Below are positions 23,330 to 50,877 of a stretch of 64,000 nt of DNA, in pieces. This stretch comes from Hyaloperonospora brassicae (lineage: Eukaryota > Oomycota > Peronosporomycetes > Peronosporales > Peronosporaceae). A program made the translations under genes and the position numbers. The notes below the pieces were generated by a model. The model worked only from the letters and a program-made list of their open reading frames with translations, was not told the DNA's origin and ran no database searches. Numbering within the stretch: the first letter of the stretch is position 1; the number at the start of each line of letters is the position of its first letter. The stretch lies in assembly GCA_947650285.1 (NCBI GenBank), contig CANTFL010001425.1:62001-126000 (forward strand). Reading direction: 5' to 3'.

Positions 23330-24740
23330 GGGTGAAAAAGCATTGTCGCTACAAGTCGTAAATGAATTTGGAGCGTCAAATACATTTTCTCGACGCTGGT
23401 CGCCAGGATTAAGTAGTCTTAAGTTTGCTCAATGCTATTTCTCTCCAAAGAAAATAGTATCCGACACAGATCAGAACTATGTAGCGGGAACTAATTTACG
23501 ATTGATAATGAACATTCCGAAGCTGATTGTATATTATTTGTTTTGTGCCAATAGCTCGGTCTCGTCCTTTATTTTTCAAGTTTTCAAACCTTTGAGCCAT
23601 TAATCTGCTGGCAGCTATGATCGGTGAATGTGCCTGTCAATATTTCATGAGATGCAATCTGATGAATGTCTGGACAACAACGAGCGCGTGAATGTTCTAC
23701 GACTCCGTGAAATGATCACATTTTTTGCCAGTATCACAACTGCACAGACTCTAGTGTACGTAAAACCCACATTGTGAACCAAGCTGCCGTCCGCCGTGTT
23801 AAAACAAAGGTATCAGCAAGGAGTTTACAACTCGAATAAGCCGATTCGACCGAGACATAAATGAACGTCTAGTAGTAGCGGGAAAATAATAAGATGCATG
23901 CTTCCTTTCAGTTGAATAAGAATAAATATAGGTCGACAAGAAAGCCGACAGTGTAAAGTGGCTGTGGTAGCGCTCCCACCTCTATAAATCTTTGAGATAA
24001 CATTTATCCATTGACCTGAGAATACTAACTTTCAGGACATAATCGAGGCACCGAATGTCTTGGAATTGATTAATTTAAGTGCAGTAGCATATAAAATTGA
24101 CATACTAGTGCTTAAAAAATCAAATCAAAAGATCACTATGGTGTTAACGATAGCACTGGGACGGTATAACGAGTTTTTTGTAGTAGCAAAGCTAATAAAA
24201 TACGTATAATCGTCGCATAGAAACACGAAAACTAAAATTTACGGTCGGCTTTAGTAACAAATGATAATAAACGAGGTTTATAGCAGCTCACCGATGAAAA
24301 GAAGTTTCCTTGACGAGAGTGCTCAGATGTAGCACTACACACATCAATACTAAATATTCTAAGGCAGCTTCTTTTTACAACAGCTATGATGGAATTTAGT
24401 AATGTTTTCCTCTGAACTCCCACGGTGCGAGCTGCCAAAAGATACAGACCCTAACTGCAAAATAGAAGTAAACCCATTTTGATATACTATGTCTAGATCA
24501 GCAGAATTTGCCTCGTGAACAAGTGATTGCGATCGACAAATTCTCTGCCAATCTCTTTGCAGCGGGAGCTATGGACGGATCAACAAAATATACATGGCTC
24601 TCGGACTTTATTTGTTAGGACGGCCACGATAAAGTGGCGGAAAATGTACTCATTCAACAATTTGAGGTTTGATATGGTAGAGACTTCGATATCGATACCG
24701 AGGATGGACGTTGTCATAGTGAATACGTCTGATATTCATT
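23330..24740 (+). pseudogene. Gypsy protease-RT relic
   Basis: Near 23345 translation gives LSLQVV-N-F-GASN-F-RR, matching the retropepsin region of the intact elements (LSLRALVDCGASNNFVRR). From about 24505 to 24720 the DNA matches the RT start of E1 and E2 (PREQV-AIDKF, then a KATxxWR-like stretch, then IPR-DVVI). It is decayed by many substitutions and indels toward AT. Where E1 and E2 have a TAG stop after TVPA, this relic appears to read TCG. Confidence 0.6.
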
Positions 24741-27700
24741 GTGTCGTTGTATATTTTATAATATTCTATTAGAACATCCTGAGCATTCGAGATATCCTTT
24801 ACACAATAGTAAGCTTCCTACTATGATATTGTGAGAGTAACGTGTGATACCATTAAGACTTTGTATCGCCGCTGCCACAATTAACGGATGGGGCACACAA
24901 TATTTCAATATAAATACGAGAAATCGTACAATGGTTCTATACCGATCGGATCGTACACAGCCTATTATTGATAAAGGCACGTACTAAAAACTACTCATGC
25001 CATTTGTAAATTCATTATATTGCTATCCGCCAGGAGATTGTTCCTACTTTCAATATTTGTATTCAAATTATACGAAATGACGCTTGATTGGCGCATCTAT
25101 AGTAAAAGCGACTTGCGCGTTGACATGAAATAACTTAAACAAATATCGACCATTCGATGTCGTGTAATGGTATGTTGCTTGATCTCGAGGCATGGTGACA
25201 CATGTCCCACTCAACTAGGCTATTGTTTGCAACCAACTTCTTAAATACGTTAGCCAATAAAACCCAACATCTGCTTTTTCAGCGCTCCTTGATCAGCTTA
25301 AGGTGAGACATTTATAAAGTATAGGCGATAGAAGAGCCAGATAAACTTTTTATGTGGGCTTTGACGCCAGCAATATTGCAATTGGCTGAAAGCTGAAAAA
25401 AGGTTCAGGAGACGCTAAAAAGGCGTCATCACATTTTAATTTACACCTAAAGCATATGTGCAAGCAGCCCAGTGCATATAATACTTTTTAACATCGCGGT
25501 ATGTACTGAACATATGCAGCTTCTGTCAGTTGAAAATAGACTCGGCATTGTGTACAATTACATTCATTTTAACGCTGAAGCGCACACACTTATCGTCGCT
25601 CATGGTCATGATACTAGCAACAGAGATGACATTATCGATGTTGGATAGAGTAAATATTTGCTCTTCGCTTAAAATTACGAAATGTAGTAACTTCATAGTT
25701 AGTGACATTGGAGTTTACTCAAAACGTAGTGGTCGCAATCGTTCAATCTTCTATCATGAGAATTGAAGATGAGTAATAATAAATAATGGCAGAAGATGGA
25801 CATAAATCGTAATTTTATGTAGCTTCAATGACTTTGTTTATTGCAATACGTAATGTCTAAAACAAACAATGACAAGCGTAAGAAGGAGCAGAAATCATCT
25901 ATTATATGCGCACGTCAGTGTGCGACCCTGCTGACGCAACTCATACGCGACCGATTTTTACAAGCAGATTGTATACGGATCCTCGGTTTTGCGGCCGAAT
26001 TAGCTCTACCCACAAGTCAGAACACGACCGCTCTCGATCAAAAAAGATGCCATTTTAAAATCATATTTCCCAATAAATTCTTGATCGCATAATGTTTTTT
26101 TTACATGGGTGTGCAAGTTCTAGATTTCCCCTTTTAATATAGGTACTACGCGAAGAACTGTCGAAAAAACTATACTTGCTCATTTTCGAATTAGTCAACC
26201 GCAAACTATAATTGTTATTCTCCCGGGTATTGTGATAAGTCTACATGGGGAATGACCTGAGTATAAAGCTCAAGATTGAGATCATAAACAACGCGTACTT
26301 TTCCAATGGTCAATGATAACATGATCGGTCAGTAGAATAGTTGGAAATAACATCCTGAACTTGTTGTGCTTCCATCACCACCATATCTGCTTCGTGATTA
26401 TCATAGGGGTCGACGCTCTAACGAAAAGCGCATTATGTCATGGAGCCTTTAAGTGATAAATACATAAGATCTACGGCTTGCTTCTCAGACTATGTTTCTT
26501 CAAACGGCAGTATGGAGTTCAGATCACCAAGTAATTGTAGACGTTTGCCTTATGGCGTCGAGCAGAATTGTAGAATATCATAACTTAATTAATGATGTAG
26601 GAAAACGAGCGTCTGTTGAACTGAAAAGGATACTGTTTAGCAGCAAATCTTCGTGAATCTTACATACAAACGCGATTTCTTTAACATGATTAATCGAGGA
26701 GTTACGTCTATTTTAAAAGCAGAAGTCGAATCGAAATTTAGGAGCATACAATGACCGTGACATACAATGCAATCCTACCGATAAAATTGATGCGATCTGT
26801 ACCTGCCACAAAATCTTGTCCTCGTCTCGTATCCATCAAGTACCGTAAATTATAATTATTCTGTCTTTACCATAGAATTCCAGGTCACTACTGGTTATCG
26901 TCGTTTAAGCGTGAATATGTAAAATTCCATTCTTCCTGTAACAATCAATACATGACCCGATTTTTTCACAAGTCGTCAGTGGAAATACATTGCACAAGCT
27001 TAATTTGTCTTGCATCATTCTCAAGGCCATGCATGACTCATTGTTGCATCGAATGTTTAGAATAAAGCCGATAGCTTGTCACATGTCGTTATGAGATCGA
27101 CAATCGAGTTCCTGCGATGACATCACCACTTTTTCTATCATTATTGATGCAAAACGCTGTTGCTGGTGTGCTTACACATAAATTTAGTAGGTGTAAAAGT
27201 AACTCGAGTCGGTCGATGAATTTTTGACGAATATGGTGACGTATTTTTATGTCACTGAAGGTTCTAAGATGGGCCTTCAGATAACTCGTCGCATAGTCGT
27301 TACCCGTTAAATTTGCGTACGGGTTTATTCGACAGACAAACGATTTTTTCTGATACGTTTTTATCGGTTCGCATCCTACAGATTGCTAAAATTTTCTTGG
27401 AAGACGCCAATTTCCCTTAAGCCATGTAGATACATGCAATGCCCGTATTCCCTACATACATGGAATTCATCTCGAAGTCATTGTGGTGCATAAACAAGGT
27501 GCAAACTTACGGAATACTAAAGCGGAATCAGGTTGGTATGTGCCTGCATCGACGAGTGATCTTCTGCTGCTCGAATCTATTTTTTACAAGCGACTACGCA
27601 CAGTCGTGTTGCCGCACTCATTGCAGCTTTCGCTGCACACCTCACAAACGTTTCATCAGCCAAATAAAGGTATTGAACTGGGTATGTTCGAAAACGAGTA

Positions 27701-30059: not shown

Positions 30060-30346
30060 TGTAACGGGTCAACGATAGCTACGTACTTAACTACCAGTGC
30101 GAAGCCAATTCTCACTGACAGTAGTGAAGGTTAGTGCCCTGCTAGCTCTATACACAATGTAGAAGAAGGGTAAACGACTAAGACAAATGCTTTAGTCGTA
30201 GAAAAAGTAAACTGCTATTTAACATAGTTAAACTCAATATCTCATGTTGTCTCATTTGTCCTAACTTAATTATGGTAATATAACTAAACGTATAATGATG
30301 TCTACTTACCACCCATTTTTTGCAGCGATTGGTGAATTGATATGAG

Positions 30347-31552
30347 GGAGAATAACAAAAAGTTGCCCCATTTAATCACGAAAATAAACAAATGCCCCAC
30401 ATCATTGGGAAATACAATAATTGCCCCACGTACTAGTATACTAAAGTTTACATGGCACACATAAAATCACACGTCCTTAATGTTTTTCGTTTTCCCAGTT
30501 TACGGCCGCGACCAACCCCCACCCTGTTAAGGAAGCCGCGGAGAGGGTTCTGCCGCGGGCGTGCTGCGCTTTCAACCACCAGTTGCACACGCAGACGCGA
30601 GGTATGAGGACGTAAACGCGTCGTATTATCATCGTTTGCGGCCGTTAGCACAGATAGTCGGTTTTAATGTTGTTGATATAAATGTTATTGCTTTTCTTAT
30701 TGCTGTTTCTGCTGCTGCTGTTGTTGTTAATTTGGTAAATCTGATACTGCTGTTGCTACTGTTGTTGTTGTAGGTGCTGCTGTTGCTGTCGTTGTTTCAG
30801 TATCTATAGTTGATGCTGCTACTGCTGTTAATGCTGCTGTCGTTGTTGTAGGTTCTGCGGTTGCAATATCGGTTGTTATACTTGCGGGATCGCATTACGC
30901 GCTCAACGGCGTTTATTCGACGACGTGGACCGTCGACGTTCCGCAGCAGGCGACATCGACGTTTGACAAGTCCGTTACGACGCCGGCGGAGTTTGAGTCG
31001 CAGTTGCAGTCGGACTTTAACTCTCAGTACGGCCCGATTCGTAGATGCAGTAGTTGGAGCAGCACAGATGACGATGCAGTCGCGTGTGGAAGAGGTAAAC
31101 GCACGAGATGCAGTCGTTGCAGTGGGTGAAGTCGCGTCGACGAACGCCCGCAACACGCGCGTGCTGGTGCTCAATGACGGACAGTGTACGTTTGTGTGTA
31201 GCAAGAAAAAGACAAGTGGGTACTGCTCCTACCGAGCTGCGTTGAAGACTGCTGACACAATTTATATTATGATTGAATTAAAGCAACTAACACTCTGATT
31301 TGCCAGTACCTACTTTGAGGATTTAGAGCAGGTTGAATCATGCTCATACAAATTGCGTTGAGAAGTATCATAAACTAGAACCAAAATTTTGTATCAATGT
31401 GCTGCGCTTGAGTTAAAGTAAGTGTGGCTGCATCATTATTCTCGACATGAGAGGCACTTGGGTATACTAGGACGTGGGACGTTTTTTATACTTTATAATT
31501 ATCTGGAGCATTTTCTTTCGCGATTAAATGGGGCATTTTTATTCTCTCATTT
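30347..31552. mobile_element. Non-autonomous TIR element (Mutator-like size of duplication)
   Basis: The 1206-bp insert interrupts the decayed LTR. Its ends are imperfect inverted repeats of ~40 bp sharing GAGAATAA, AAA and TGCCCCATTTAATC-CGAAA. The LTR sequence ATATGAG occurs on both sides (30340-30346 and 31553-31559), with flanking bases that could extend the duplication to 8-9 bp, in the range of Mutator-like elements. No transposase is present. It contains a GC-rich coding-like segment. Confidence 0.7.
30561..31190 (+). pseudogene. Captured gene-like segment inside the TIR element
   Basis: From 30561 a frame reads a soluble stretch (FQPPVAHADARYEDVNASYY) and then hydrophobic Val/Leu/Ala-rich sequence encoded by GTT/CTG triplets. 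It ends, and an overlapping frame continues with hydrophobic sequence, then GSHYALNGVYSTTWTVDVP and PAEFESQLQSDFNSQYG to about 31040. A third frame carries on with VDAVVGAAQMTMQSRVEEVN to RVLVLNDGQ near 31185. The segment is GC-rich against an AT-rich background and behaves as one membrane-protein gene broken by two frameshifts or introns. I do not recognise the family. It could be a host gene fragment captured by the element. Confidence 0.45.
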
Positions 31553-31704
31553 ATATGAGCACGATAGTAATCAATGAGTAGACCTGTGGGTCAGCTCAAC
31601 AATATTGCTAAATCTAATTATATTGTTAAACCAATATTCAACATGATACTCTTTATTACCATTTCTCACAATGGCAATTTTATGTAACGGGATGCCCTGT
31701 TACA

Positions 31705-32134: not shown

Positions 32135-32624
32135 TTGGGGCCCGAAACAAAGAACAGGCTCAACCGCTGCGAAGCCAATGACATCCACGTTCTGACGCGC
32201 TTCTTAGATCTTGACAGTGCATACAACTCAGCGCCGAAAGGAATACAGAGTCAATCGTCAGATCAACTATCTGGTCAGCTTCTCCGAAATATAGGAGACA
32301 CCCACGCCTTCCTACGTCGAAATATTGAATCGGTTCACAAGCGTGAGCATTTTCGTGTCAAGGTATCTACCATATGCTCCCCTCCTACTGCGCCTTTTCG
32401 AAAGAAAACACGCCAGGATGCGATATCTAAGGACTCGACAGCTACGAAGGGAATGGTATCCGTTACTCGTGTGACCAGTGTGGAACAAGACTGCCGTACC
32501 CGATCAAGCCAGTGTGCTGCTGATGAGTGGGAAGATGGTCCTCCGGGCCTACTACAAATACACCGAGTCTTTGATGAAGGGGATCGACCGCCGAGAAAGG
32601 AGCTTCTCAGATTCGACTACGCAC
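32135..32624 (+). pseudogene. S33 peptidase pseudogene, part 1 (interrupted by E1)
   Basis: In shifting frames this encodes the C-terminal half of the S33 family seen at 14783 and 62112: NRCEANDIHVLTRF, then CAFSKE-like residues, then WNKTAVPDQASVLLMSGK and KYTESL. The catalytic Asp position reads GKMV instead of GKLD, so the acid is lost. Several frameshifts precede the break at FDYA. The 5' half, including the Ser nucleophile, is absent. The last five bases, CGCAC (32620-32624), are the target duplication of E1. Confidence 0.85.
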
Positions 32625-33066
32625 TGTAACGGGGTAGCCCGTTACATGAGATTGTCATTAAAACAATTTGACAATAAAGAATATTACGTCGAATATTATT
32701 TTAACAATATCACAAGACATGGTGATATTGTTGGGATGACCGAAGGGTCTACTCATTGGTTGATATCGTGATGATATCAACCCACGAATCGCTGCTAGAC
32801 GCGCGCAATGGGTGGTGAGTAGACTTCATCATACATACAGTTATATTAGTATAATTAAGTCAGGACAACAGAGATTCAAGGAGTTATACGACTTAATTAT
32901 ATAAATACAGTTTTACTTTTACCAAGAGACTAGTATGACTACTTAGTCTCCTTTCCTTCTTCTGTGTTTCCTTAAAACACCTAGCAGGGCACTGTCGACC
33001 ACTGTCGTCAGTGGAAGTATACTCCGTACTGGTCAACCAGTACGTAGTCAACAGTGCCCCGTTACA
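32625..33066 (+). repeat. E1 5' LTR (442 bp)
   Basis: Starts TGTAACGGGG, ends CCCCGTTACA. The first 22 bp form a hairpin (32625-32633 with 32638-32646). A TATA-like stretch TATATAAATA lies at 32899-32908. Further hairpins include GTACTGG/CCAGTAC near the 3' end. Confidence 0.95.
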
Positions 33067-33085
33067 CCTGGTAGCACTTTGTAGT
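33067..33085 (+). other. E1 primer-binding site (putative)
   Basis: Two bases after the LTR comes TGGTAGCACTTTG. TGG matches the complement of a tRNA CCA end. E2 has TGGTAGCAATTTG at the same place, so the site is conserved while neighbouring sequence differs. The tRNA was not identified. Confidence 0.55.
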
Positions 33086-33116
33086 CCGTCCAAGGACCAC
33101 AACCCCATCGCCCAAC

Positions 33117-34283
33117 ATGAACACGTTGAAAGATGTAGACGGCGACAGCTTTCACGGAACCCGTGAAAGCTTCTTCAATTTGAGCGACATCGAATGGAGT
33201 GCGATCAAACGAATGAGTTCGACCGTTGGCGAGGAAGCCATCTGGGCCATGCTATCCTCAAGGAATAGGGACCAGCAACATGTCGTCATTAGCAAGTTCT
33301 TGCAACGAGAACTTGATGAGTCGCGAGCGCAGGTGACCTTGTTACAACAACAAGACCACCAGCGGACCGAAGCACTGAGACAACAACAGTCTCAGTCCGC
33401 AGAGCCGACGCGTGAGCGTCGACGGGAGTCTCTAAAATTAGAGGTCTCCAAGTATCAGAAGGTCGAGGAAGACTCCCTGTTGAGGTGGCTCGTCGAGATG
33501 GACGATGCCATCGATGCTCGTCGCATCGATGATGAGCGAATGCAAGTCTCATTTGCTCAGTCTAACCTGGCAGGAGAAGCCAGAGCTTGGGCCCTAAAAT
33601 TCAAGTTGCACGACCCACATATGTTTAGGTCGTTGAGAATCTTTAAGACCCTGCTCAGTGAGACGTTTCGGCCGCCCAGAGCAGAGTTCAGGTCTGTTTC
33701 GGAGCTCCTGCACATCAAGCAGGGTGAGTGTAAGGTTCACGCTTACGCTCAACATGTCCGCTACCTTGCAAGCTGCATGTTAGTGAACCCTGTGAGTGAG
33801 TTTGTGTTGATCACAATCTTTATTCAAAGGCTTTCAGACGGTCCCGTTAGGGACCACCTGTTCCGCGGAGAGCTAAAGACGCTATCAGAGACAATCTTCG
33901 CAGCGGAGCAAGAAGATTATAGCGTGAGACAGTCTCACGCTACGTTGAACCCGCATCGTCCACAGAGACGATTAGCCGTCGAAGCCCCAGAACCAATGGA
34001 CCTCTGTAATGTTGAGGGCGAGAAACCTCGCCCTGCGAATGACAAGCGAATAGTGAGATGCCATCGCTTTCATAAACTGGGACACTCCGCATATGAATGC
34101 AGTATTCCCCGCTCAGAACCCCGCGGGGCTGAGCGCAGTGTTCACCCACCAACAAGAAGAACTGGAGGGCGAGGGTCCGTTGCTGTTGCGAAGTCGCAAC
34201 AGCAAGGTAGACCATTAAAAAACGGTCGGGATCTGTTGGTTCGGAGCGCCCTACTGGTCCAGCAACATCAAAAGAATTTGTGA
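33117..34283 (+). CDS. E1 gag
   Basis: 388 aa, open from the first ATG after the LTR. The N-terminal ~110 residues are a coiled-coil with Gln-rich runs, followed by the Ty3/Gypsy capsid core (SLLRWLVEMDDAI through PVRDHLF, residues ~120-245). The zinc knuckle near the C-terminus reads C-H-R-F-H-K-L-G-H-S-A-Y-E-C: the second Cys of CX2CX4HX4C is Phe, so RNA binding may be impaired. E2 gag, about 55% identical by eye, keeps an intact CCHC. Many short hairpins run through the coding sequence, for example an 11-bp stem at 33147-33157/33161-33171. Confidence 0.9.
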   Translation: MNTLKDVDGDSFHGTRESFFNLSDIEWSAIKRMSSTVGEEAIWAMLSSRNRDQQHVVISKFLQRELDESRAQVTLLQQQDHQRTEALRQQQSQSAEPTRERRRESLKLEVSKYQKVEEDSLLRWLVEMDDAIDARRIDDERMQVSFAQSNLAGEARAWALKFKLHDPHMFRSLRIFKTLLSETFRPPRAEFRSVSELLHIKQGECKVHAYAQHVRYLASCMLVNPVSEFVLITIFIQRLSDGPVRDHLFRGELKTLSETIFAAEQEDYSVRQSHATLNPHRPQRRLAVEAPEPMDLCNVEGEKPRPANDKRIVRCHRFHKLGHSAYECSIPRSEPRGAERSVHPPTRRTGGRGSVAVAKSQQQGRPLKNGRDLLVRSALLVQQHQKNL

Positions 34284-35044
34284 ATCTTCTGAAGAAGGTT
34301 GCTCCCGACACACAATATCTGTGTGTCTCTGCACCTGGTGATGAGGTGTCACTCATCACCTTGAAGTTAGAAGTGACAAAAGACTTGTCACTTCGCTCCC
34401 TAGTTGACTGTGGGGCGTAGAACAATTTTGTTCGTCGCCAGTCGCTAGAGGCAGGAAGTTTAGCTTCGTGAAGCGGAAGATCCCTCTAGCGAAGATGACG
34501 GTGCACCTAGCGACAGTCGTATCGATTACTGTGAAGAAAAAAGTAGTCGGAATCCACTACACATTAGAAGGCGAACACTAGGATGATGATTTCATCGTGC
34601 TTGACCTAGATGACAAGTTCGACGTCATCTTAGGGTTGCCTTGGCTCAGAAAGTACGAGCCAAGGGTGAGTTGGCATTATCGATCGGTTACGATACCTGC
34701 CACTTGTTCCTCAGATAACCATCTGACCAAATATCTTGGAACGCTAAAATTCATGTGGGCGTACTGCGAGTGAGTGCGATGGCCTCACTTGCGGTACGGT
34801 CGTTAGCACGACTGCACAAGATCACAGTGTAGTTGATCATTACACTGTGGAGCAAGCTCCCGGCGGCTGTACAGAAGTACAGGCTGCGCCGAAGGTCCAC
34901 CACTCGAATAAGTCGAGTGGACCGGGACATGGATGCATGCCTAGCGGGCAGCATCTTAGACAAAAGTAACCTATTGCCCCCAAGGGGCAACATGAAAATC
35001 CTAGGTCGACTGGAGATTCGACCGTAGAGGATCGGTGCCTGACT
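34284..35044 (+). pseudogene. E1 protease region, broken
   Basis: Frames recovered from several phases match a retropepsin: LRSLVDCGA followed by a TAG and then NNFVRRQSLE. The DxGA core is kept, but the stop and later frameshifts inactivate it. Left of ~34764 this region is strongly diverged from E2; right of it the two elements are almost identical. Confidence 0.75.
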
Positions 35045-36290
35045 GTGGTTGCACAGCCACAGTCAGAAGACGTCGAGGGAATAGGTCCCCACGTACGTGA
35101 GGAAGGAATTCCTCAAGAGTCACTGGCTGAGGGATCAGGCCCTCAGCAACCTGTGGAAGCAAGTTCACAGGAAGAAACCGAGACGGTGAACGTCTTGGTT
35201 AATGAAGGATCAAGCGTAGGCGCTTATACGCTTGATCTGATTGTGCCTCCGAAGTCAACTTCGGAGATAAGTCAGTTGCCAACGCTAGAACCGAAACGGT
35301 TTTTGCGTGATCTGCGTAGTGGCAAAGTCAAGCAGATCTGCATACTCGTCACAGAGGATGAGAATGTGGCCGATATTCGGTCGGCAACAGTATTTGCTGA
35401 GAACGAACGGGTTCTCAGCAGCTCATCGATGGACGAAAGTGTCCTCGATGAGAAGACTCGGATTGAGCGATACACGTCTCAATCCTGGGAGTCACTTCAG
35501 GCAAATCCTTTGTATAAGGATTTGATCGAATTCAGGGATGTGTTCCCTGAATCCGTACCTTGCGAGTTGCCTAAGAACAAAGGCACTCGACACGAGATCG
35601 AGCTCAAACCGGGCTCGAAGCACTGTGTCATGAAGCAGTGGCCACTGCCTCGTGAACAAGTACTAGCGATCGACAAGTTCTTTGCCGATCGCTTAGCAGT
35701 GGGACATGTGAGGGAATCAACATCCCCTCACAGCTCTCCGACCTTCTGTGTGCGAAAGGCCACAGAATGGTGGCGGATAGAGCACGCATTCAACAAATTG
35801 AATGCTGCAACGGTACCGGCTTAGACGCCGATACCGAGAAAGGACGTAATCATAGATGGTATGTCAAAGAGTACCATCTTTTCGTCCATGGATCTGATGG
35901 ATGGATTTTATCAGATCCTCATGCGTGGACGGGACATCCCGTTCACAGCAGTGAGTACCCCCAGCAGGATGCTGTGGGAGTGGCTAGTGATGCCACAGGG
36001 GCTGATCAATGCCCCTGCAACATTCAACAGATGTGTTACAAATATGTTGAGACCGGTACGAGACTTCGCACCAAGTTACTTCGACGATGTGTTCGTCCAT
36101 AGCCGGGCTATGGACGGAAAGACGGACGTTGAAGTTCACAGAACTCGCGTTCGTCAGGTTCTTCAACTTATGCGCAAGCATAAGTTGTACGCCAAACCTC
36201 AAGAAGTGTATATTCGCGGCAAGCGAAATACCACTTCTTGGGTGCATCGTCGGCAAATACGGCGTCCGCCCTGATCCCGAAAAGATCAAG
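35045..36290 (+). pseudogene. E1 reverse transcriptase, stop codon and frameshift
   Basis: The RT begins around PREQVLAIDKFFADRLAVGHV and continues through SSPTFCVRKATEWWRIEHAFNKLN. An in-frame TAG (35822-35824) interrupts it after TVPA, and the same frame continues with TPIPRKD, SSMDLMDGFYQI and the catalytic YFDD of YFDDVFVHS. A one-base excess in the AAA at 36194-36196 then shifts the frame before LKKCIFAASEIPLLG. Both lesions are also present in E2. Confidence 0.88.
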
Positions 36291-36847
36291 GCGATCACCG
36301 AATGGCCAGTCTCAGTCGATGTCAAGGGACTAAGGAAGTCCCTTGGCTTGGCGGCATACTTGCACAAGTACTCGCGCAACTACGCCGAGATGACTGTTCA
36401 TCTTTCTTGCTTGCTCAAGAAAGATGTGAAGTGGTCATGGAACGCTGAGTGCCAGCGTTCCTTTGAAGGTATCAAGCAAAGCATGATGCAATCGCCAAGA
36501 TGGGCGATTGCAGATCAGGACAGACCTTTTCATGTGGTCTGTGACGCAACGATTTTGCAATCTGCTGTGCGTTGATGCAGTATGACACAGACAGCGCAGA
36601 GCGCGTCGTCTGCTATCAGTCGCGTCAGCTGCAAGCAGCTGAGCGCAATTACCCAGTGCATGACAAGGAACTCCTTGCCATGAAATATGCACTGGCTAAG
36701 TTCCGGGTCTATCTCCTCAGAGATAGACCGTTCATCGTCTATACGGACCATGCGTCACTACGCACGGCTGTAAACAGTCTACACCTCTCGCAAAGAATGG
36801 CGAGGTGGCTGTCTTTCTTCGCGGAGTATAACTTCTCCGTGGAGTAG
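36291..36847 (+). pseudogene. E1 RNase H
   Basis: Ty3-type RNase H: FHVVCDA, then NYPVHDKELLAMKYAL, then YTDHASLRTA supply the acidic residues. A one-base loss near 36550 (absent from E2) breaks the first motif, and a TAG at 36845-36847 after NFSVE ends the frame; that stop is shared with E2. Confidence 0.85.
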
Positions 36848-37788
36848 AAACCAGGACGACTTAATGTCGTCGCTGATGCGTTATCACGTCGGCCCGACTT
36901 CGGGCCAACGACCCGAGTCAACAGTGAGGCCTTGCCCACTGTTGCGACACTGTCCATCAGTGTGCCGTCGTCGCCGTTACTCGACGACGTGCGGAAGGCA
37001 TACTCAGGAGACCCAAATTTCCTCCGTTTGATGGGTCATCTTGCGAATCCATCCCGGAAATCCTTGTCGGATTTGCCGGCCCTGTACCGTTCCTTTTTGG
37101 ATCGGTACAATAATCGCAATGGCCTGCTGTAATATACAGCAGTTGCCGACGACACGCCTCGTGTCGTCGTTCCCGATCATGATTAATGCGATTACGCATC
37201 ATGTTCGAGTGTCACGATGCGCCATCTGGCGGGCATCGTGGCCGAGAAAAGACTTACCTCACGGTCAGTCGTGACTTTTACTGGCCCCGCCAGTATCAGT
37301 TTGTCCGCAAGTACATTTTTTCTTGCGAGGTTTGTCAACGGGTGAAGCCTAGTCCTTCATCCCATGCAACCTTACAACCTCTGCCGGTCCCGGCAGAGTG
37401 TTGGGAGTCCGTGTCCATGGACTTTGTCTTCGGGTTTCCCGAAGGCTCTCACAAGAATAATGGTATTTTTGTATTTGTGTATCGTTTCAGCAAGATGGTA
37501 CATCTTGCTGCTGTCCCCGAGTCGATCATGGCTCAGGGTTGTGCTCGTGTCTTTCTCGACACGGGCTTTAGACTCCACGGTTTACCCTGTGAACTCGTAT
37601 CCGACCGTGAACCTCGGTTCACGGCGGAATTTTGGCAAACTGTGTTCCGTTCTCTTGGAACACGATTGAAGATGTCAACCTCTGACCATCCGAAAACAGA
37701 TGGTCAGACGGAACGTGCGAACCGTGTCCTCGAATAGATCCTCTGAGGATATGTCCACTCGCTTTCGAGTTGGAGCGAATTCCTTCCA
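36848..37788 (+). pseudogene. E1 integrase, broken
   Basis: The HHCC zinc domain (HDAPSGGH ... CEVCQRVK) is followed by the catalytic core with D in MDFVFGFPEG, D in VSDREPRFTAEFW and E in DGQTERANRVLE. Stops interrupt it: TAA at 37130-37132 and TGA at 37744-37746 are shared with E2, TAG at 37735-37737 is private to E1. This stretch shows the densest hairpin array I mapped. Confidence 0.88.
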
Positions 37789-39123
37789 ATGGTGGAATTC
37801 GGCATCAATAATTCGGTGCATGCTTCCACACAGCACACACCGTTTTACGTGAATGGCTTACGCCATCCACGTGTTCCCGCCCTTCTAGCTTATGACTCTT
37901 GGATAAGGGGGGAAGGGACTCGCTCGAGCGAAAACCGTTCTGGCTCTTGCTCATCACGTGTCGACGCTAACGTCGTCACGTATGATGCCGATGTCGATCA
38001 GGTCGACATCGATGAAGAAGATCACCTCAATAATAGCGACGACGCTATTATTGACTCGGATGGTGATGACGATGCTGGTATATTCAGCATCGTCAACGAT
38101 TATTCCAGCGAGGAAGAAGACAACCACGCTGAAGAAGAGAACAATCTCTTATCAGTGCACACGAAGCGCACTGAAAGACAAAACAAAGAGTCAGCAGAGA
38201 ACTTCCTGCTGACTCGAGAGGCGGTAGTCCGTTTCGTTCAGGACTCCATCGCAAACGCGGTGGACCGCCAGAAACGGAACGCAGACAAGAATGGAAGAGC
38301 AAATGTTCTTTCATTTAAAGTTAATGACCTAGTACTACTGTCTACGGTAAACTTACCTGGACATGCAGTCACTAGTGTCGGCAGTAGTGAACTACTGCCG
38401 AAGTACATTGGGCCATTTCGTGTGTTGCACCGCAAGGGCAATGCATACACGATTGAGTTGCCACGTAAGATGCGCACGCATCCTACGTTTTACGTGGGGA
38501 GGCTCTGCCCGTACCATCAGTACGAGGCCTCTTGCGAGAACGGAGATAACTGGCGCTCTCAAGAATCCCCAACAGATTCTTGTGATCACGGACCAAACAC
38601 TGAAGTTGGTCCTTCGTCGAAAAGATTTGATACTTCATCGACGCGGCCTTGCGACGAGCCGTCTCTAGCTCGTCGTGCAAACGACGCCTCTCGCGTTCAC
38701 TCTCAAGCTGAGCGAACGCGAATTCCGATCGGTCCTTATCCCTATCGGCACGAAGACGTCGCACGTCCGACTGCAAGACGTGCAGACGATTGTATTCGTG
38801 ATCGACATCCTCCCTCAGCTCAGTCAGGTAATGCTCGTGGGTACCCAAAGTCTCGTGCAGTTCCGGCGGCTGATCCGGACCTTGTCTTTCCACCACCACC
38901 GGAACCACTGGTGGATTCCCACGGTAGTCAACACTTTCTTGTGGAGAGTATCTTGAACCACCTTGGCTATTCAGAATCGAGGATGAGTTACCTCGTCCGG
39001 TGGCGTGGGTACCCACCTTCCTTTGACAGATGGGAACCTCGTTCCCAGCTGATGGCTGACGTTGAAGGTCTCGTCCACCAGTATGACGAGACTCAATCGA
39101 TAGGTCATCGGGCCCATCTGTAA
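37789..39123 (+). CDS. E1 integrase C-terminus plus chromodomain
   Basis: An open frame of 444 codons in continuation of the integrase. It holds an acidic insert, a GPF/Y-like module ([21 protein letters not shown]), a Pro/Ser/Arg-rich linker and a C-terminal chromodomain ([12 protein letters not shown] ... YLVRWRGYP ... WEPRSQL). Chromodomains steer chromovirus integration toward modified histones. The sequence after ~38501 is diverged from E2, and the linker and chromodomain lie opposite the coiled-coil half of the antisense ORF (38483-39226). Confidence 0.85.
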
Positions 39124-40119
39124 ACACGCGCCCTAGGCGCTTGTAGACGTATTGCAAGTTTGCAATCGCGTCCCGCTTCTCAGCCGAGATGTATGCCCTT
39201 CCCCAGTGCGAACTTAAGGAATACACGTCCCTATGTGCACGATGCGAGTTGTCGACACAGCTCGCACAAGGATCACCTTAAGTGAAGCATGTAATGCCGG
39301 CCTCACTTGACAGATTATGCAACCGGTACCTTGCACCGGTTGGCGTTCGCTTTTCGAACCTGAGGCGTGTCGCCTCAAGCTTCTTAAGCCATCCCTCTCG
39401 TCCAAATTCTTGATATTTTGGACGAACGCGTTCCACGCTGCCAAAAGCGAGTTCTTGTCACGCTTTTGGTTGCCATTATACCATCTATGTCTAAGAAAGG
39501 CATCGAGATAAAAGTCCTCTTCAGCGCGGAAGTTAATCGCGCTAAAATGTAAGCTATGAAGCTCAGTTGCATAAAAAAGGATTCGATGGTGTTGGCTTGT
39601 CTCGTGAGACAAGCCATTGATGAGCCGTTCAGGCAAACGCCACGGTTTCAGCTCATCATGATTCACAGTGGTACCTCTGTCGGTACCACGGCTCCCAGAA
39701 TGACGACGGCTCACGCCATCGTCATCACGCTCGTGCGAAGAGGCACGAGTCGGCGGTGGTAAGGAGTAATACTCCTCACCACTCTGATGACCTTCATCAT
39801 CACTGCCGAACAGAATGTGATGCATCTCACAAGTCCGTTCGTTCGGCAGTGGCCTTGGCAAATACTGAGGCGTCGCCGGTGATCGGGATGCCTCAGGAAC
39901 GTTGCGCGGGTCAGGCACGTCTGACTCGGCAGAATTGATGACCTCATTGCCAAGGTCATCATGAGCACGTGGTGCGATACCGCGTGCACCTGCAGCACCT
40001 GTTGCTGCAGACGGAGAACAAGCATCAGATGCCGAAGCGTCTGCCGTAGAGGCTGGCACAGCAGCAGGCTGTGTGGTCTCTGAATTATCTCGCATCGACA
40101 TGTTAACTATGCGAGACAA
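38483..40119 (-). pseudogene. E1 antisense ORF, one frameshift
   Basis: Opposite to gag-pol, starting ~115 bp inside the 3' LTR. The first part (301 codons, 39214-40119) is Ser/Pro/Ala-rich and acidic, then has a conserved FYLDAFLRHRWYNG / LLAAWNAFVQNIKN domain. The second part (38483-39226, 247 codons) is in another frame and forms a coiled coil ([28 protein letters not shown]). The break is a missing T in a T-run where E2 has one more. E2 encodes a homologous protein. No known domain was recognised. Such antisense ORFs are known from some plant Gypsy elements; function is unknown. Confidence 0.7.
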
Positions 40120-40220
40120 GGTCAGGAGTGAATGGGTCTGGCCAATAAAGTGCTCCCTGTCCTACTGGTGTCCATCGGGTGGCCACCAAGTTTTCGATAG
40201 TCACAAGGTGACTATCAGAT

Positions 40221-40233
40221 AAGGGAGGAATGA
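40221..40233 (+). other. E1 polypurine tract
   Basis: AAGGGAGGAATGA directly precedes the 3' LTR. E2 has AAGGGAGGGGTGA at the same place. It would prime plus-strand DNA synthesis. Confidence 0.75.
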
Positions 40234-40675
40234 TATAACGGGGTAGCCCGTTACATGAAATTGTCATTAAAACAATTTGACAATAAAGAATATTACGTCG
40301 AATATTATTTTAACAATATCACAAGACATGGTGATATTGTTGGGATGACCGAAGGGTCTACTCATTGGTTGATATCGTGATGATATCAACCCACGAATCG
40401 CTGCTAGACGCGCGCAATGGGTGGTGAGTAGACTTCATCATACATACAGTTATATTAGTATAATTAAGTCAGGACAACAGAGATTCAAGGAGTTATACGA
40501 CTTAATTATATAAATACAGTTTTACTTTTACCAAGAGACTAGTATGACTACTTATTCTCCTTTCCTTCTTCTGCGTTTCCTTAAAACACCTAGCAGGGCA
40601 CTGTCGACCACTGTCGTCAGTGGAAGTATACTCCGTACTGGTCAACCAGTACGTAGTCAACAGTGCCCCGTTACA
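40234..40675 (+). repeat. E1 3' LTR (442 bp)
   Basis: Same length as the 5' LTR with about four substitutions, including TG to TA at the first dinucleotide. Confidence 0.95.
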
Positions 40676-40917
40676 CGCACCGCATATGGTTGTGTATGAG
40701 ACTCCGTATGAGGAGGTAGAAGGAAGTGTGGTAGGGATATCCGAGATTTGTACGTTGCCGACAAAGGTAACCTCGGCCTTTTGGACAAGTCGTGCATATC
40801 TAACATGCCCGCCATGAACATGACGCCCACGCCCGAACTCGTGGTGTATTGGCTTGTTACTGACGAAGCGTACGATATTGTGGCAGCTATATTTGTGCTT
40901 AATTGTAGCAATTAGTA
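40676..40917 (+). pseudogene. S33 peptidase pseudogene, part 2 (after E1)
   Basis: Starts with the duplicated CGCAC. Removing E1 and one duplicate restores FDYAPH, the catalytic-His motif of the S33 family. Downstream, NLGLLDKSCISNMPAMNM and TDEAYDIVAA match the C-terminus of the intact copies in shifted frames. Confidence 0.88.
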
Positions 40918-42876: not shown

Positions 42877-43269
42877 TGAAACGGGGCACACCCTTGCGTA
42901 AACTTAACGCAAGGGTATCGGTGCCCCGGCAGGCGTACACAAGGCAAGCGAGGAAGCGTAGGTAAGGTAAAAGCAGAACTGTTATATTAATATAATTAAG
43001 TCTTTTGTTACTGTCTCTCTGTTTGACTTAACTTAATTATGCTAATATAACTGAGTGTATGGTGACGTCTCGTCACCACTCATTGCGCGCGTCCTGTGAC
43101 GATTGGTGGGTTGATATCATCAAGATATTAACCAATGAGCAGACCCTTTGATCGCCTTCACCAATATCACCACTTTGGTGATATTGTACAAAGAATATTC
43201 ATGTTAATATTCTTTATTGTCTTTCTTTCTTTAAATTGACAATTCCATGTAACGGGCTGCCCCGTCACA
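42877..43269 (-). repeat. E2 3' LTR (393 bp)
   Basis: On the + strand it begins TGAAACGGGG and ends CCCCGTCACA; both ends have one substitution against the other LTR. It contains the nested hairpin GGGGCAC / CCCTTGCGT and the 9-bp terminal stem. Confidence 0.95.
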
Positions 43270-43282
43270 TCACCCCTCCCTT
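43270..43282 (-). other. E2 polypurine tract
   Basis: Reads AAGGGAGGGGTGA on the minus strand immediately before the 3' LTR. Confidence 0.75.
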
Positions 43283-43402
43283 ATCTGATAGTCACCTTGT
43301 GACTATCGAAAATATGGTGGCCACTCATTGGTCACCATTGGGACAGGGAGCAATTGTTGGGTCAGTTCCGTTCGTAACTCGACCTGACCTCGCATAGTAA
43401 AC

Positions 43403-45012
43403 ATGTCTATGCGGAGTGACTTACGGCACACAGAGTCTGTGCCTGTGCCTGCTTCTGCGGCAGACGATTCGTCGTCTGCCGCTCGTTCTTCGCCTGCAGC
43501 AACAGGTGCTGCAGGTGCACGCGGCACCATACCGCGTGCGCATGATGACCCCGACATTGAGGTCATCTATTCTGGCGAGTCAGACGTGTCTGACTCGGGC
43601 AATGTCCCAGAGGCGTCTCGATCACCGGCGACGCCTCAGTATTCGCCAAGACCACTGCCGAACGAACGGACTCGTAAGTTGCAACACAGTCTGTTCGGCA
43701 GTGATGATGAAGGTCATCAGAGTGGTGAGGAGTATTACTCCTTACCACCGCCGACTCGTGCCTCTTCGCACGAGCGTGATGACGATGGCGTGAGCCGTCG
43801 TCATTCTGGGAGCCGTGGTACCGACAGAGGTACCACTGTGAATCATGATGAGCTGAAACCGTGGCGTTTGCCTGAACGGCTCATCAATGGCTTGTCTCAC
43901 GAGACAAGCCAACACCATCGAATCCCTTTTTTTATGCAACTGAGCTTCATAGCTTACATTTTAGCGCGATTAACTTCCGCGCTGAAGAGGACTTTTATCT
44001 CGATGCCTTTCTTAGACATAGATGGTATAATGGCAACCAAAAGCGTGACAAGAACTCGCTTTTGGCTGCGTGGAACGCGTTCGTCCAAAATATCAAGAAT
44101 TTTGGACGAGAGGGATGGCTTAAGAAGCTTGAGGCGACACGCCTCAGGTTCGAAAAGCGAACGCCAACCGGTGCAAGGTACCGGTTGCATTGTTTATCGA
44201 GTGAGGCAGACATTCCTTGCCTCACATGGGGAGACCCTTGTGCGAGTTGCGTTGACAACTCGCAGCGTGCACGTAGGGATGTGTATTTCCTAAGTTCGCC
44301 CTGGGAAAGGGCACACATCTCGGCTGAGATGCGTGACGCGATTGCAAACTTGCAATCCGTCTACAAGCGCCTAGGGCGCGTGTTTACTGATGGGCCACAG
44401 GACTCATCGGATAAGTCTCGTCATACTGGCGGACGAGACCTTCAACATCCATCAACAGCTGAGAGCGGGGCTCCCAGCTGTTCCAAGAGGGTGGATACCC
44501 ACGCCACTGGACGAGGTAGCTCTTCCTTGATTCTAAATCGTCACGGTGCCTCAAGATACGCTCCACTAGGAAGCGCTGACCACCGTGAGCATCCACCAAA
44601 GGATGTGGTGGAGGAGGAAAGACCTCCTCCAGATGATTCGGTTCACCATCTCGACCCTTACGAGATGGATCGCGCAATCGATGAATTGCGCGATGACTTG
44701 AAGCACGATCGCGACCGGCGCTACGCTTTGACTGATACCGTGCGGAAGAACCGCAAGTATCGCGAGGCTGATCGGGCGAGAGACCGCGCCGATTACGCCA
44801 CAGCTCAGCTTCAGGTCGAGCGGGAGGTCCGCTACCTTTTCGGCGAGCTGGCGACAGCTCGCGGAGAGATATCTCGGTTGAGTTCCGAGGTATCATATAT
44901 GCGCGACCAGACGGATCGTCTGGAGCGCGAACGCAAGAACTTGATGGATGTTCTTGAACGTGGAGGCTATCTTCATCGGATGAAGGAGGCTTGTACTGAA
45001 AGTATGGCCTGA
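43403..45012 (+). pseudogene. E2 antisense ORF, one frameshift
   Basis: Starts 134 bp inside the 3' LTR and runs opposite to gag-pol. Part 1 (43403-44293) is acidic and Ser/Pro-rich up to LINGLSHETSQHHRI, where two extra bases in the CCCTTTTTTT run shift the frame relative to E1. Part 2 (44062-45012) reads NSLLAAWNAFVQNIKNFGREGWLKKLEATR, a Cys-containing stretch (PCLTWGDPCASCVD), then a long coiled coil ([37 protein letters not shown]). Taken together the ancestral protein was about 530 aa. Homologous to the E1 antisense ORF; E1 and E2 are broken at different points, so neither lesion is ancestral. Confidence 0.72.
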
Positions 45013-45018
45013 GCCCTC
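44384..45018 (-). CDS. E2 linker and chromodomain
   Basis: Continues the integrase after a one-base insertion at the GGGAGGG near 45013. A Pro/Ser/Arg-rich linker leads into a chromodomain ([27 protein letters not shown] ... WEPRSQL). The linker is poorly conserved with E1 whereas the protein on the opposite strand is well conserved. Confidence 0.8.
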
Positions 45019-46670
45019 CCCACGTAAAACGTAGGATGCGTGCGCATCTTACGTGGCAATTCGATTGTGTATGCGTTTCCCTTGCGATGCAACACTCGAA
45101 ATGGCCCAATGTATTTCGGCAGTAGTTCACTACTGCCGACACTAGTGACTGCATGTCCAGGTAAGTTTACCGTAGACAGTAGTACTAGGTCATTAACTTT
45201 AAATGAAAGAACATTTGCTCTTCCATTCTTGTCTGCGTTCCGTTTCTGACGGTCCACCGCATTTGCGATGGAGTCCTGAACGAAACGGACTACCGCTTCT
45301 CGAGTCAGCAGGAAGTTCTCTGCTGACTCTTTGTTTTGTCCTTCAGTGCGCTTCGTGCGCACTGCTAAGAGATTGCTCTCTTCTTCAGCGAGGTTGTCTT
45401 CTTCCTCGCTGGAATAATCGTTGACGATGCTGAATATACCAGCATCGTCATCACCATCCGAGTCAATAATAGCGTCGTCGCTATTATTGAGGTGATCTTC
45501 TTCATCGATGTCGACCTGATCGACATCGGCATCATACGTGACGACGTTAGCGTCGACACGTGATGAGCAAGAGCCAGAACGGTTTTCGCTCGAGCGAGTC
45601 CCTTCCCCCCTTATCCAAGAGTCATAAGCTAGAAGGGCGGGAACACGTGGATGGCGTAAGCCATTCACGTAAAACGGTGTGTGCTGTGTGGAAGCATGCA
45701 CCGAATTATTGATGCCGAATTCCACCATTGGAAGGAATTCGCTCCAACTCGAAAGCGAGTGGACATATCCTCAGAGGATCTCTTCGAGGACACGGTTCGC
45801 ACGTTCCGTCTGACCATCTGTTTTCGGATGGTCAGAGGTTGACATCTTCAATCGTGTTCCAAGAGAACGGAACACGGTTTGCCAAAATTCCGCCGTGAAC
45901 CGAGGGTCACGGTCGGATACGAGTTCACAGGGTAACCCGTGGAGTCTAAAGCCCGTGTCGAGAAAGACACGAGCACAACCCTGAGCCATGATCGACTCGG
46001 GGACAGCAGCAAGATGTACCATCTTGCTGAAACGATACACAAACACAAAAATACCATTATTCTTGTGAGAGCCTTCGGGAAACCCGAAGACAAAGTCCAT
46101 GGACACGGACTGCCAACACTCTGCCGGGACCGGCAGAGGTTGTAAGGGTGCATGGGATGAAGGACTAGGCTTCACCCGTTGACAAACCTCGCAAGAAAAT
46201 ATGTACTTGCGGACAAACTGATACTGGCGGGGCCAGTAAAAGTCACGACTGACCGTGAGGTAAGTCTTTTCTCGGCCACGATGCCCGCCAGATGGCGCAT
46301 CGTGACACTCGAACATGATGCGTAATCGCATTAATCATGATCGGGAACGACGACACGAGGCGTGTCGTCGGCAACTGCTGTATATTACAGCAGGCCATTG
46401 CGAGTATTGTACCGATCCAAAAAGGAACGGTACAGGGCCGGCAAATCCGACAAGGATTTCCGGGATGGATTCGCAAGATGACCCATCAAACGGAGGAAAT
46501 TTGGGTCTTCTGCGTATGCCTTCCGCACGTCGTCGAGTAACGGCGACGACGGCACACTGATGGACAGTGTCGCAACAGTGGGCAAGGCCTCACTGTTGAC
46601 TCGGGTCGTCTGGCCCGAAGTCGGGCCGACGTGATAACGCATCAGCGACGACATTAAGTCGTCCTGGTTT
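45019..46670 (-). pseudogene. E2 integrase, broken
   Basis: Same domains as E1: HHCC zinc domain, catalytic D (MDFVFGFPEG), D (VSDRDPRFTAEFW) and E (DGQTERANRVLEE), then the acidic insert and GPF-like module (44973-45728). Stops at 46385-46387 (TAA after NGLL) and 45771-45773 (TGA after EEIL) are shared with E1. Where E1 has a TAG after RVLE, E2 keeps GAG. Confidence 0.88.
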
Positions 46671-47322
46671 CTACTCCACGGAGAAGTTATACTCCGCGAA
46701 GAAAGACAGCCACCTCGCCATTCTTTGCGAGAGGTGTGGGCTGTTTACGGCCGTGCGTAGTGACGCATGGTCCGTATAGACGATGAACGGTCTATCTCTG
46801 AGGAGATAGACCCGGAACTTAGCCAGTGCATATTTCATGGCAAGGAGTTCCTTGTCATGCACTGGGTAATTGCGCTCAGCTGCTTGCAGCTGACGCGACT
46901 GATAACAGACGACGCGCTCTGCGCTGTCTGTGTCATACTGCATCAACGCACAGCCGATTGCAAAATCGCTTGCGTCACAGACCACATGAAAAGGTCTGTC
47001 CTGATCTGCAATCGCCAAGATCGGCGATTGCATCATGCTTTGCTTGATACCTTCAAAGGAACGCTGGCACTCAGCGTTCCATGACCACTTCACATCTTTC
47101 TTGAGCAAGCAAGAAAGATGAACAGTCATCTCGGCGTAGTTGCGCGAGTACTTGTGCAAGTATGCCGCCAAGCCAAGGGACTTCCTTAGTCCCTTGACAT
47201 CGACTGAGACTGGCCATTCGGTGATCGCCTTGATCTTTTCGGGATCAGGGCGGACGCCGTATTTGCCGACGATGCACCCAAGAAGTGGTATTTCGCTTGC
47301 CGCGAATATACACTTCTTGAGG
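46671..47322 (-). pseudogene. E2 RNase H with RT thumb
   Basis: Intact RNase H motifs FHVVCDASDFAIGCAL, DKELLAMKYAL and YTDHASLRTA, ending at the shared TAG after NFSVE (46671-46673). The upstream boundary is the shared one-base frameshift (TTT at 47323-47325 on the + strand). Confidence 0.85.
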
Positions 47323-48687
47323 TTTGGCATACAACTTATGCTTGCGCATAAGTTGAAGAACCTGACGAACGCGAGTTCTGTGAACTTCAACGTCCGTCTT
47401 TCCGTCCATAGCCCGGCTATGGACGAACACATCGTCGAAGTAACTTGGTGCGAAGTCTCGTACCGGTCTCAACATATTTGTAACACATCTGTTGAATGTT
47501 GCAGGGGCATTGATCAGCCCCTGTGACATCACTAGCCACTCCCACAGCATCCTGCTGGGGGTACTCACTGCTGTGAACGGGATGTCCCGTCCACGCATGA
47601 GGATCTGATAAAATCCATCCATCAGATCCATGGACGAAAAGATGGTACTCTTTGACATACCATCTATGATTACGTCCTTTCTCGGTATCGGCGTCTAAGC
47701 CGGTACCGTTGCAGCATTCAATTTGTTGAATGCGTGCTCTATCCGCCACCCTTCTGTGGCCTTTCGCACACAGAAGGTCGGAGAGCTGTGAGGGGATGTT
47801 GATTCCCTCACATGTCCCACTGCTAAGCGATCGGCAAAGAACTTGTCGATCGCTAGTACTTGTTCACGAGGCAGTGGCCACTGCTTCATGACACAGTGCT
47901 TCGAGCCCGGTTTGAGCTCGATCTCGTGTCGAGTGCCTTTGTTCTTAGGCAACTCGCAAGGTACGGATTCAGGGAACACATCCCTGAATTCGATCAAATC
48001 CTTATACAAAGGATTTGCCTGAAGTGACTCCCAGGATTGAGACGTGTATCGCTCAATCCGAGTCTTCTCATCGAGGACACTTTCGTCCATCGATGAGCTG
48101 CTGAGAACCCGTTCGTTCTCAGCAAATACTGTTGCCGACCGAATATCGGCCACATTCTCATCCTCTGTGACGAGTATGCAGATCTGCTTGACTTTGCCAC
48201 TACGCAGATCACGCAAGAACCGTTTCGGTTCTAGCGTTGGCAACTGACTTATCTCCGAAGTTGACTTCGGAGGCACAATCAGATCAAGTGTATAAGCGCC
48301 TACGCTTGATCCGTCATTAACCAAGACGTTCAACGTCTCGGTTTCTTCCTGGGAACTTGCTTCCACAGGTTGCTGAGGGCCTGATCCCTCAGCAAGTGAC
48401 TCTTGAGGAATTCCTTCCTCAAGTACGTGGGGACCTATTCCCTCGACGTCTTCTGACTGTGGCTGTGCAACCACAGTCAGGCACCGATCCTCTACGGTCG
48501 ACTCTCCAGTCGACCTAGGATTTTCATGTTGCCCCTTGAGAGGCAATAGGTTTCTTTTGTCTAAGATGCTGCCCGCTAGGCATGCATCCATGTCCCGGTC
48601 CACTCGACTTATTCGAGTGGTGGACCTTCGGCGCAGCCTGTACTTCTGTACAGCCGCCGGGAGCTTACTCCACAGTGTAGTGATCAA
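47323..48687 (-). pseudogene. E2 reverse transcriptase with internal TAG
   Basis: Open from 48687 to the TAG at 47695-47697 after TVPA, then again in the same frame through TPIPRKD to the catalytic YFDDVFVHS. The stop is at the same codon as in E1. The N-terminal third is a Glu/Ser-rich spacer between protease and RT. Confidence 0.88.
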
Positions 48688-49231: not shown

Positions 49232-49281
49232 GAGATTTGCAAATTCTCTTGAGGTTGCTGGATCAGTAGGGCGCTCCGCCC

Positions 49282-50436: not shown

Positions 50437-50461
50437 GTTGGATGTTGTGGTCCTTGGAAGG

Positions 50462-50478
50462 ACTACAAATTGCTACCA
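50462..50478 (-). other. E2 primer-binding site (putative)
   Basis: On the minus strand TGGTAGCAATTTGTAGT lies 2 nt after the LTR end, matching the E1 site except for a few bases. Confidence 0.55.
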
Positions 50479-50480
50479 GA

Positions 50481-50872: not shown

Positions 50873-50877
50873 GCATC

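Follow-up and report, generated by a model that had tools for sequence, protein, structure and literature searches.

The retrotransposon E1 occupies positions 32625-40675 of a 64,000-nucleotide stretch of the Hyaloperonospora brassicae genome (the window; contig CANTFL010001425.1, positions 62,001 to 126,000 of the forward strand, assembly GCA_947650285.1) and is filled from end to end with short perfect hairpins, in coding and non-coding parts alike. We compared these hairpins with those of related copies and of other elements in the same genome. Hairpin density was far above shuffled controls, the stems were strictly Watson-Crick paired and covaried between subfamilies, the trait was restricted to the E1 family and one sister family, and exact loop inversions recurred. 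To the explanation that we favor, namely that hairpin-dependent template switching, with one arm templating the other, both creates the hairpins and keeps them perfect, most likely during reverse transcription, we would assign an even chance.

Density was scored as non-overlapping perfect stems of at least 8 bp with loops of 3-15 nt per 2-kb bin, with eight dinucleotide shuffles of each bin as controls. The E1 bins spanning 34001-40000 held 22, 17 and 14 stems, compared to 0.12-0.25 in the shuffles. The bins of E2, a second copy of the family in the window, held 12, 21, 21, 26 and 10, and shuffled means in the bins of both elements were at most 0.75. The recurrence in E2 that a first-pass annotation of the sequence had described is real but not an independent case, since the two copies are 90% identical over 5.5 kb and 99% identical in an 801-bp integrase piece. 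Bins outside E1 and E2 held 0-3 stems each, except for 18001-20000 with 6, where a solo long terminal repeat (LTR) of the E1 family sits (19670-20063; six stems of 9-10 bp). With stems of at least 7 bp and loops of up to 30 nt, E1 contained 108 non-overlapping hairpins in total.

Mean RNAfold z-scores in 150-nt windows (plus/minus strand) were -5.73/-5.84 for L058 and -5.80/-5.29 for L022, two further copies of the family, far below the -0.23/0.07 and 0.02/-0.01 of two host genes. The annotation, by eye, had seen no such pattern in the host genes at 3-12 kb.

All 14 stems that the annotation had named were present: the 12 of its test stretch in the integrase gene (37120-37710, plus strand) and those starting at 33147 and 36706. 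Twelve of the 14 appeared in the list of stems of at least 7 bp, among them 37379-37398 and 37605-37624, each as 9 bp with a loop of 2; the two 6-bp stems (37306/37322 and 37546/37558) were read directly. Its extension of the pattern to gag, the antisense open reading frame (ORF) region and the LTRs also held, as stem densities were similar across LTRs, gag, pol and the 3' region in the 4 of 22 copies tabulated. Hairpins started at 32625, 32703, 32758, 32850 and 33025 within the E1 5' LTR, those of gag included 33147-33171 and 34180-34205, and pol carried 38 stems of at least 8 bp in 3617 nt. The 3' region held 9 such stems in E1 and 14-18 in E2, L018 and L022. Regular spacing was rejected, the coefficient of variation being 0.673 compared to 0.665 under random placement.

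As the reading frames of E1 are broken, the codon-preserving control was performed on L058. Its open 1018 codons of pol contained 42 stems of at least 8 bp, whereas 100 synonymous permutations gave a mean of 0.64 and a maximum of 3, so that the density stands above the codon-preserving shuffles that the annotation had proposed as a check. The same permutation gave 22 stems against a mean of 0.80 (maximum 3) for L059, which represents the sister family, and 0 against 0.72 for L060 of the next family. The rarest stem register in L058 was that of third position against third position (9 of 53 stems), as expected if wobble positions complete the pairing. Nothing pointed to base composition, codon bias, repeats or faulty assembly as the source of the pattern, and we give such an origin a negligible probability: dinucleotide shuffles and synonymous permutations abolish it, and it is found at independent places on many contigs, such as 620 sites of one 10-bp hairpin in homologous but diverged sequence.

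The search covered 100.56 Mb in 898 contigs. Twenty further copies were taken as the best matches to one integrase piece (of 40 listed, among 1834 candidates) and are not a random sample. E1, E2 and all 20 of these copies carried 6-13 perfect stems of at least 8 bp per kb (6.4-12.5 for the 20 alone), compared to 0-1.34 in every one of the 20 Copia loci that ranked highest among the matches listed. Inner density was approximately 6.5-9.6 per kb in the subfamily with a 442-nt LTR, to which E1 belongs, and 8.4-13.2 per kb in that with an LTR of about 392 nt, which includes E2 and L022. A decay of density with age was considered and rejected: density was set by subfamily and showed no correlation with LTR divergence (rho -0.07, 21 copies), several of these divergences being inflated because the cut-out 3' ends extend into flanking DNA. 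Stems with alignment gaps (2467 comparisons) and copies with short or diverged LTRs were left out of the counts.

Twelve reverse transcriptase (RT) loci of 1.2 kb were also scored, with permuted means of 0.1-0.7 stems of at least 8 bp. Loci of the E1 family held 18 (L046) and 10 (L055) stems, and those of the sister family 5 (L047), 4 (L052) and 4 (L053). Seven loci (L048, L049, L050, L051, L054, L056 and L057), from three Gypsy families and three non-LTR elements, held none. High hairpin density is thus confined to the E1 family and one sister family. An RT tree of 25 sequences and 309 columns assigned L058 and the sister family to separate clades, and the hairpin-free L060 did not fall outside both; deep support was not strong, and this placement allows either two gains or one loss of the trait. 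Beyond this genome, collections of viral contigs and of genome contigs returned no DNA match to the family, and relatives were found as protein matches only.

The stems were Watson-Crick only, G-T not being commoner than A-C. Mismatch columns common to at least three copies comprised 66 G-T, 66 A-C and 112 other, and one-mismatch stems 101 G-T, 158 A-C and 154 other, set against 1025 perfect stems of at least 9 bp (24 related sequences summed). The neutral input of mismatches after insertion was 193 G-T, 166 A-C and 223 other. The folding excess was as strong on the antisense as on the sense strand. With no G-T excess and equal strands, the structure looks like a DNA hairpin, or like one needed on both strands. 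The 1891 stem base pairs were divided into 504 GC, 483 AT, 455 TA and 449 CG; this absence of a bias toward G-C and T-A pairs runs counter to intrastrand switching and fits an inter-strand or symmetric process. RNA editing and strand-specific hypermutation were rejected as well, as private substitutions were balanced between the strands, with 309 C>T against 302 G>A and 206 A>G against 192 T>C.

Pairing was maintained where sequence had changed. Two Watson-Crick types, each in at least three copies, were found at 40 of 1249 stem pairs (each seen in at least three copies), and four slid controls gave 4-6. Among the fixed differences between the subfamilies in stems were 30 double Watson-Crick changes, 11 double changes of other kinds and 97 changes on one side only. 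Conserved functional stems were rejected as an explanation, because the sister family does not share them: among 22 stems of at least 7 bp examined in L046, none was fully paired in L047, L052, L048 or L054, and L053 was partly gapped. Stem positions turn over while density remains high, and the hairpins of the sister family lie at other places.

These results bear on whether selection acts on the structure of the sense genomic RNA, be it for packaging, for protection from RNA silencing or as genome-scale ordered RNA structure (GORS). Strongly negative folding scores along the element and the covariation of stem pairs are what such selection would leave. However, G-U pairs, which are harmless in RNA, were not enriched over A-C mismatches, the antisense strand showed an equally strong folding excess, and stems were not kept between families at 65% amino-acid identity. 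Moreover, the sister family, with 22 stems compared to 0.8 expected, folded no better than the stem-free L060 (L059 -1.19/-1.11, L060 -0.97/-1.39). We consider selection on sense RNA unlikely. The RNA packaging role suggested in the annotation found no support, as the stems were evenly spread (in 4 of 22 copies) and their positions not conserved. Its suggestion of an anti-RNA interference structure likewise gained no support from the G-T test as far as sense RNA is concerned, but may hold for a structure that has to form on both strands.

The 22 aligned copies were next scanned for inverted segments between conserved flanks, with reversed-only and complemented-only swaps as controls. With at least four differences required, exact reverse-complement swaps were found in 6 segments at 5 sites (L024, L014, E1, L009 and L021), compared to 1 reversed and 0 complemented; at three or more differences the counts were 15, 1 and 4, respectively. 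All five sites, and a sixth with three differences (L019), lay in hairpin loops whose closing stems were perfect and 8-11 bp long, and each of the five inversions was private to one of the 22 copies. The remaining three-difference swaps had no flanking stem (one had 1 bp) and were at control level.

The E1 inversion lies in the RNase H part, in a hairpin at 36487-36512 (plus strand) with a 10-bp stem and a 6-nt loop. The loop (36497-36502) is inverted relative to the 21 other aligned copies, changing Ile-Leu to Arg-Trp. Genome-wide, 630 sites retained the arms and flank of this hairpin, of which 533 had the standard loop and 2 the inverted one. The second inverted copy, L061, had no other rare derived base in common with E1 over 1.5 kb (all three shared sites were the loop itself), and the inversion must therefore have recurred or travelled by recombination. 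For the hairpin at 34180-34205 the loop was inverted at 14 of 765 sites, with two loop alleles as the source of 11 and 3 of these, respectively. A hairpin near 40032 showed two inverted loops in the listed part of its 533 sites. Complete loop inversion is taken as a sign of inter-strand template switching in the available text of Monttinen and Loytynoja 2022 (PMC8794818). On the sequence evidence, we read the loop inversions in the E1 family as footprints of template switching.

We infer that loop inversion and the copying of one arm onto the other come from one and the same switching. The arms evidently can act as templates for the opposite strand, and a process using them in this way would also mend mismatches between the arms, G-T and A-C alike, leaving the strands equal. 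Such templating would require loops of hairpin size and would act in coding and non-coding parts; loop lengths peaked at 4-8 and were at background level from 14. The switching would probably belong to reverse transcription rather than to host replication, since the restriction of the trait to one clade, with other Gypsy and Copia families present, points to the element's own replication. Protein function would filter the surviving hairpins, which would account for the codon-compatible register, and a ceiling, either loss of over-stable hairpins or selection, would keep almost every stem from exceeding 12 bp. Among the ideas in the annotation, palindrome-forming replication errors are thus the one favored, on the strength of the exact loop inversions, the Watson-Crick-only pairing, the symmetric folding excess and the lack of conserved positions.

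A stronger form of this explanation, which we put a little short of even, is that the lineage is self-palindromising: its replication enzyme would switch at small hairpins so often that the whole element, coding sequence included, became perfect DNA hairpins of 8-11 bp. Mutational drive would then dictate synonymous codon choice, and the sister family would have done likewise, independently and at other positions.

Several results weigh against arm copying. When simple copying was simulated at densities of 7.7-8.7 stems per kb, many stems of 14-29 bp formed, with maxima of 27-29 bp (one run per setting). The real stem lengths showed a second mode at 8-10 bp, which is not expected from copying by itself. 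Where shared haplotypes differed by several bases, the differences affected both arms in 38 of 42 rows and one arm in 4, whereas a single switch predicts one arm; the test is blunt, as the lineages diverged over many events. The single copies L024 and L025 are candidates for a one-arm change. Compensated double changes on terminal branches were near chance (4 versus 4 non-pairing; 25 versus 21 at a looser threshold), and few new stems arose from clustered changes (6 of 250 clusters, 2.06 expected). When LTRs were compared within elements, none of 68 LTR stems showed an inversion, a sample too small to date the process relative to insertion. Finally, the hairpins may owe their existence to something else, with the loop inversions as a side effect. 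Among private stems, 64 of 78 were one base away from the nearest copy.

As the simulation overshoots the real stem lengths, a stability ceiling or selection must be added to copying, and for this reason we hold copying at an even chance and keep as a credible, though less probable, alternative that selection is diffuse. Hairpins would then be favored because they work as DNA hairpins in single-stranded cDNA or have to form in sense and antisense transcripts alike, perhaps compacting or shielding the element or making it a poor target, with switching as an occasional by-product. A characteristic stem length of 8-10 bp is in keeping with such selection: L022 had 25 stems of 7 bp, 39 of 8, 29 of 9, 31 of 10, 7 of 11, 2 of 12 and 1 of 13, and the sharp drop above 11 bp was shared by E2, L018 and L058, with the mode at 8 in L059. 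None exceeded 13 bp in the five sequences tabulated, and the longest stem was one private 14-bp stem in L007. Stem and loop length were anticorrelated (rho -0.30, n=290), again as diffuse selection would have it, and the turnover of positions under persistent density points the same way. So does the lower amino-acid conservation of stem codons, which was 0.56-0.58 in stems compared to 0.66 outside for L058 and 0.48-0.50 compared to 0.64 for L059. At sites where two other families agree, the excess loss in stem codons was significant for L059 only (p = 0.014; L058, p = 0.42).

Energy was the remaining argument for diffuse selection. Among 180 stems shared by at least four copies, pooled, the spread of folding energy was 3.0, compared to 4.2 after permuting pairs (0 of 300 permutations were as small). 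However, permuting loops gave a spread slightly below that observed, and the GC-length relation behind a set point was absent in L058 (rho -0.02, n=65), while in L059 it ran the other way (rho +0.44, n=29). We therefore keep an energy set point as a lead only, as the pooled-stem signal was not reproduced in L058 or L059 alone. Diffuse selection also does not require the loop inversions, and we know of no function that demands Watson-Crick-only hairpins along an entire retroelement. Mean hairpin folding energy was -12.6 kcal/mol in L059, whose stems are shorter and GC-rich, and -11.5 kcal/mol in L058, whose stems are longer and GC-poorer; a stability set point is one possible reason for the similar values. 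The commonest outermost stem pair had its C in the 5' arm and its G in the 3' arm (60 of 169; L022, E2, L018, L006 and E1 pooled).

E1 is a Ty3/Gypsy chromodomain LTR retrotransposon, with all its sense features on the plus strand. Its LTRs (32625-33066 and 40234-40675; 442 nt, 4 of which differ) are flanked by a 5-bp target-site duplication, CGCAC, at 32620-32624 and 40676-40680; ends and duplicated flank were read off the sequence. The gag ORF (33117-34283) matched Pfam Retrotrans_gag above the cut-off and Ty3_capsid slightly below it. In pol, from protease to integrase (34284-37900), the frame is disrupted by in-frame stops and frame changes, and tblastn with L058 pol as query found the parts for RT, RNase H and integrase spread over three frames and interrupted by stops. 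L058 itself matched Pfam models for RT, two for RNase H, the integrase zinc-binding domain and the integrase core. The 3' part of pol (37789-39123) is an ORF with SH3_Tf2-1 and Chromo above the cut-off. Assignment of the family thus rests on LTRs with target-site duplication, gag upstream, the order RT, RNase H, integrase, and a 3' chromodomain. The region at 39124-40233 is without a sense ORF and encloses an antisense ORF at 39214-40119. Two antisense ORFs, of 247 and 301 codons, lie at the 3' end (38483-40119, minus strand), and those of the 3' region had no Pfam match. Among the best 120 of 1441 protein matches, the nearest named proteins were those of Peronospora effusa, with 88% identity across 94% of the query, followed by Globisporangium and Phytophthora, which makes a downy-mildew-like oomycete the likely host.

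E2 lies in inverted orientation at 42877-50875 (minus strand), with LTRs at approximately 42877-43272 and 50481-50875, and is as hairpin-dense as E1. Despite the 99% identity of their integrase piece, the LTRs of E1 and E2 are only about 79% identical, as if both were mosaics of two LTR subfamilies that had recombined. In-frame stops in pol are shared by E1 (35045-37900) and E2 (45600-48423), although the LTR pairs are only 1-3% diverged; defective copies thus seem to have been mobilised in trans. Old remnants of this element or of a related one, comprising an RT part and pieces of LTR at 66-75% identity, were seen at 24015-24814, 30060-30343 and 31550-31704.

If copying is the true explanation, a biased mutation process and not functional selection shapes thousands of codons, and the origin of perfect stems and compensatory changes, long debated, becomes observable across the hundreds of copies that one element has left. 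Should selection prove right, the nucleic acid of this retroelement would have an architecture of a new kind along its whole length. Under either, base-pair covariation, often taken to prove functional RNA structure, would need a second explanation here.

The annotation knew of no described Gypsy family with this property, and we found none in the open-access literature, subscription journals being mostly outside its coverage. Oomycete Ty3/Gypsy chromodomain (chromovirus-like) elements have in common with the E1 family the TG..CA ends of the LTR, the 5-bp target-site duplication, the gene order and an SH3-like domain with a chromodomain. The E1 family differs in its density of perfect short hairpins from end to end; L060, in the same genome and at 62% amino-acid identity, has none. 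The GORS of RNA viruses is likewise a pervasive folding excess in coding and non-coding sequence, but its mark, an excess on the genomic strand with G-U pairs tolerated, differs from the short Watson-Crick stems and equal strands found here. Ty3 and Ty1 genomic RNA probed by selective 2'-hydroxyl acylation analyzed by primer extension (PMC11381356) provides another case of structured retrotransposon RNA, including the RT region; the portion of that description available to us presents a mosaic of stable and dynamic regions and no chain of perfect hairpins. In quasipalindrome correction in Escherichia coli, according to the accessible part of PMC7202029, imperfect inverted repeats are likewise perfected by a template switch at a hairpin, although at hot spots of bacterial replication and not over a whole element. 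The template-switch hairpins of PMC8794818, in the cases its available text sets out, are rare events in rRNA and microRNA genes during replication by DNA polymerase, whereas here hairpins saturate one mobile-element family, coding sequence included, with inverted loops at up to 14 of 765 sites. Reverse-complement arms, compensatory pair changes and loop inversion with an intact stem are the features reported there, and all of them are seen in the E1 family too.

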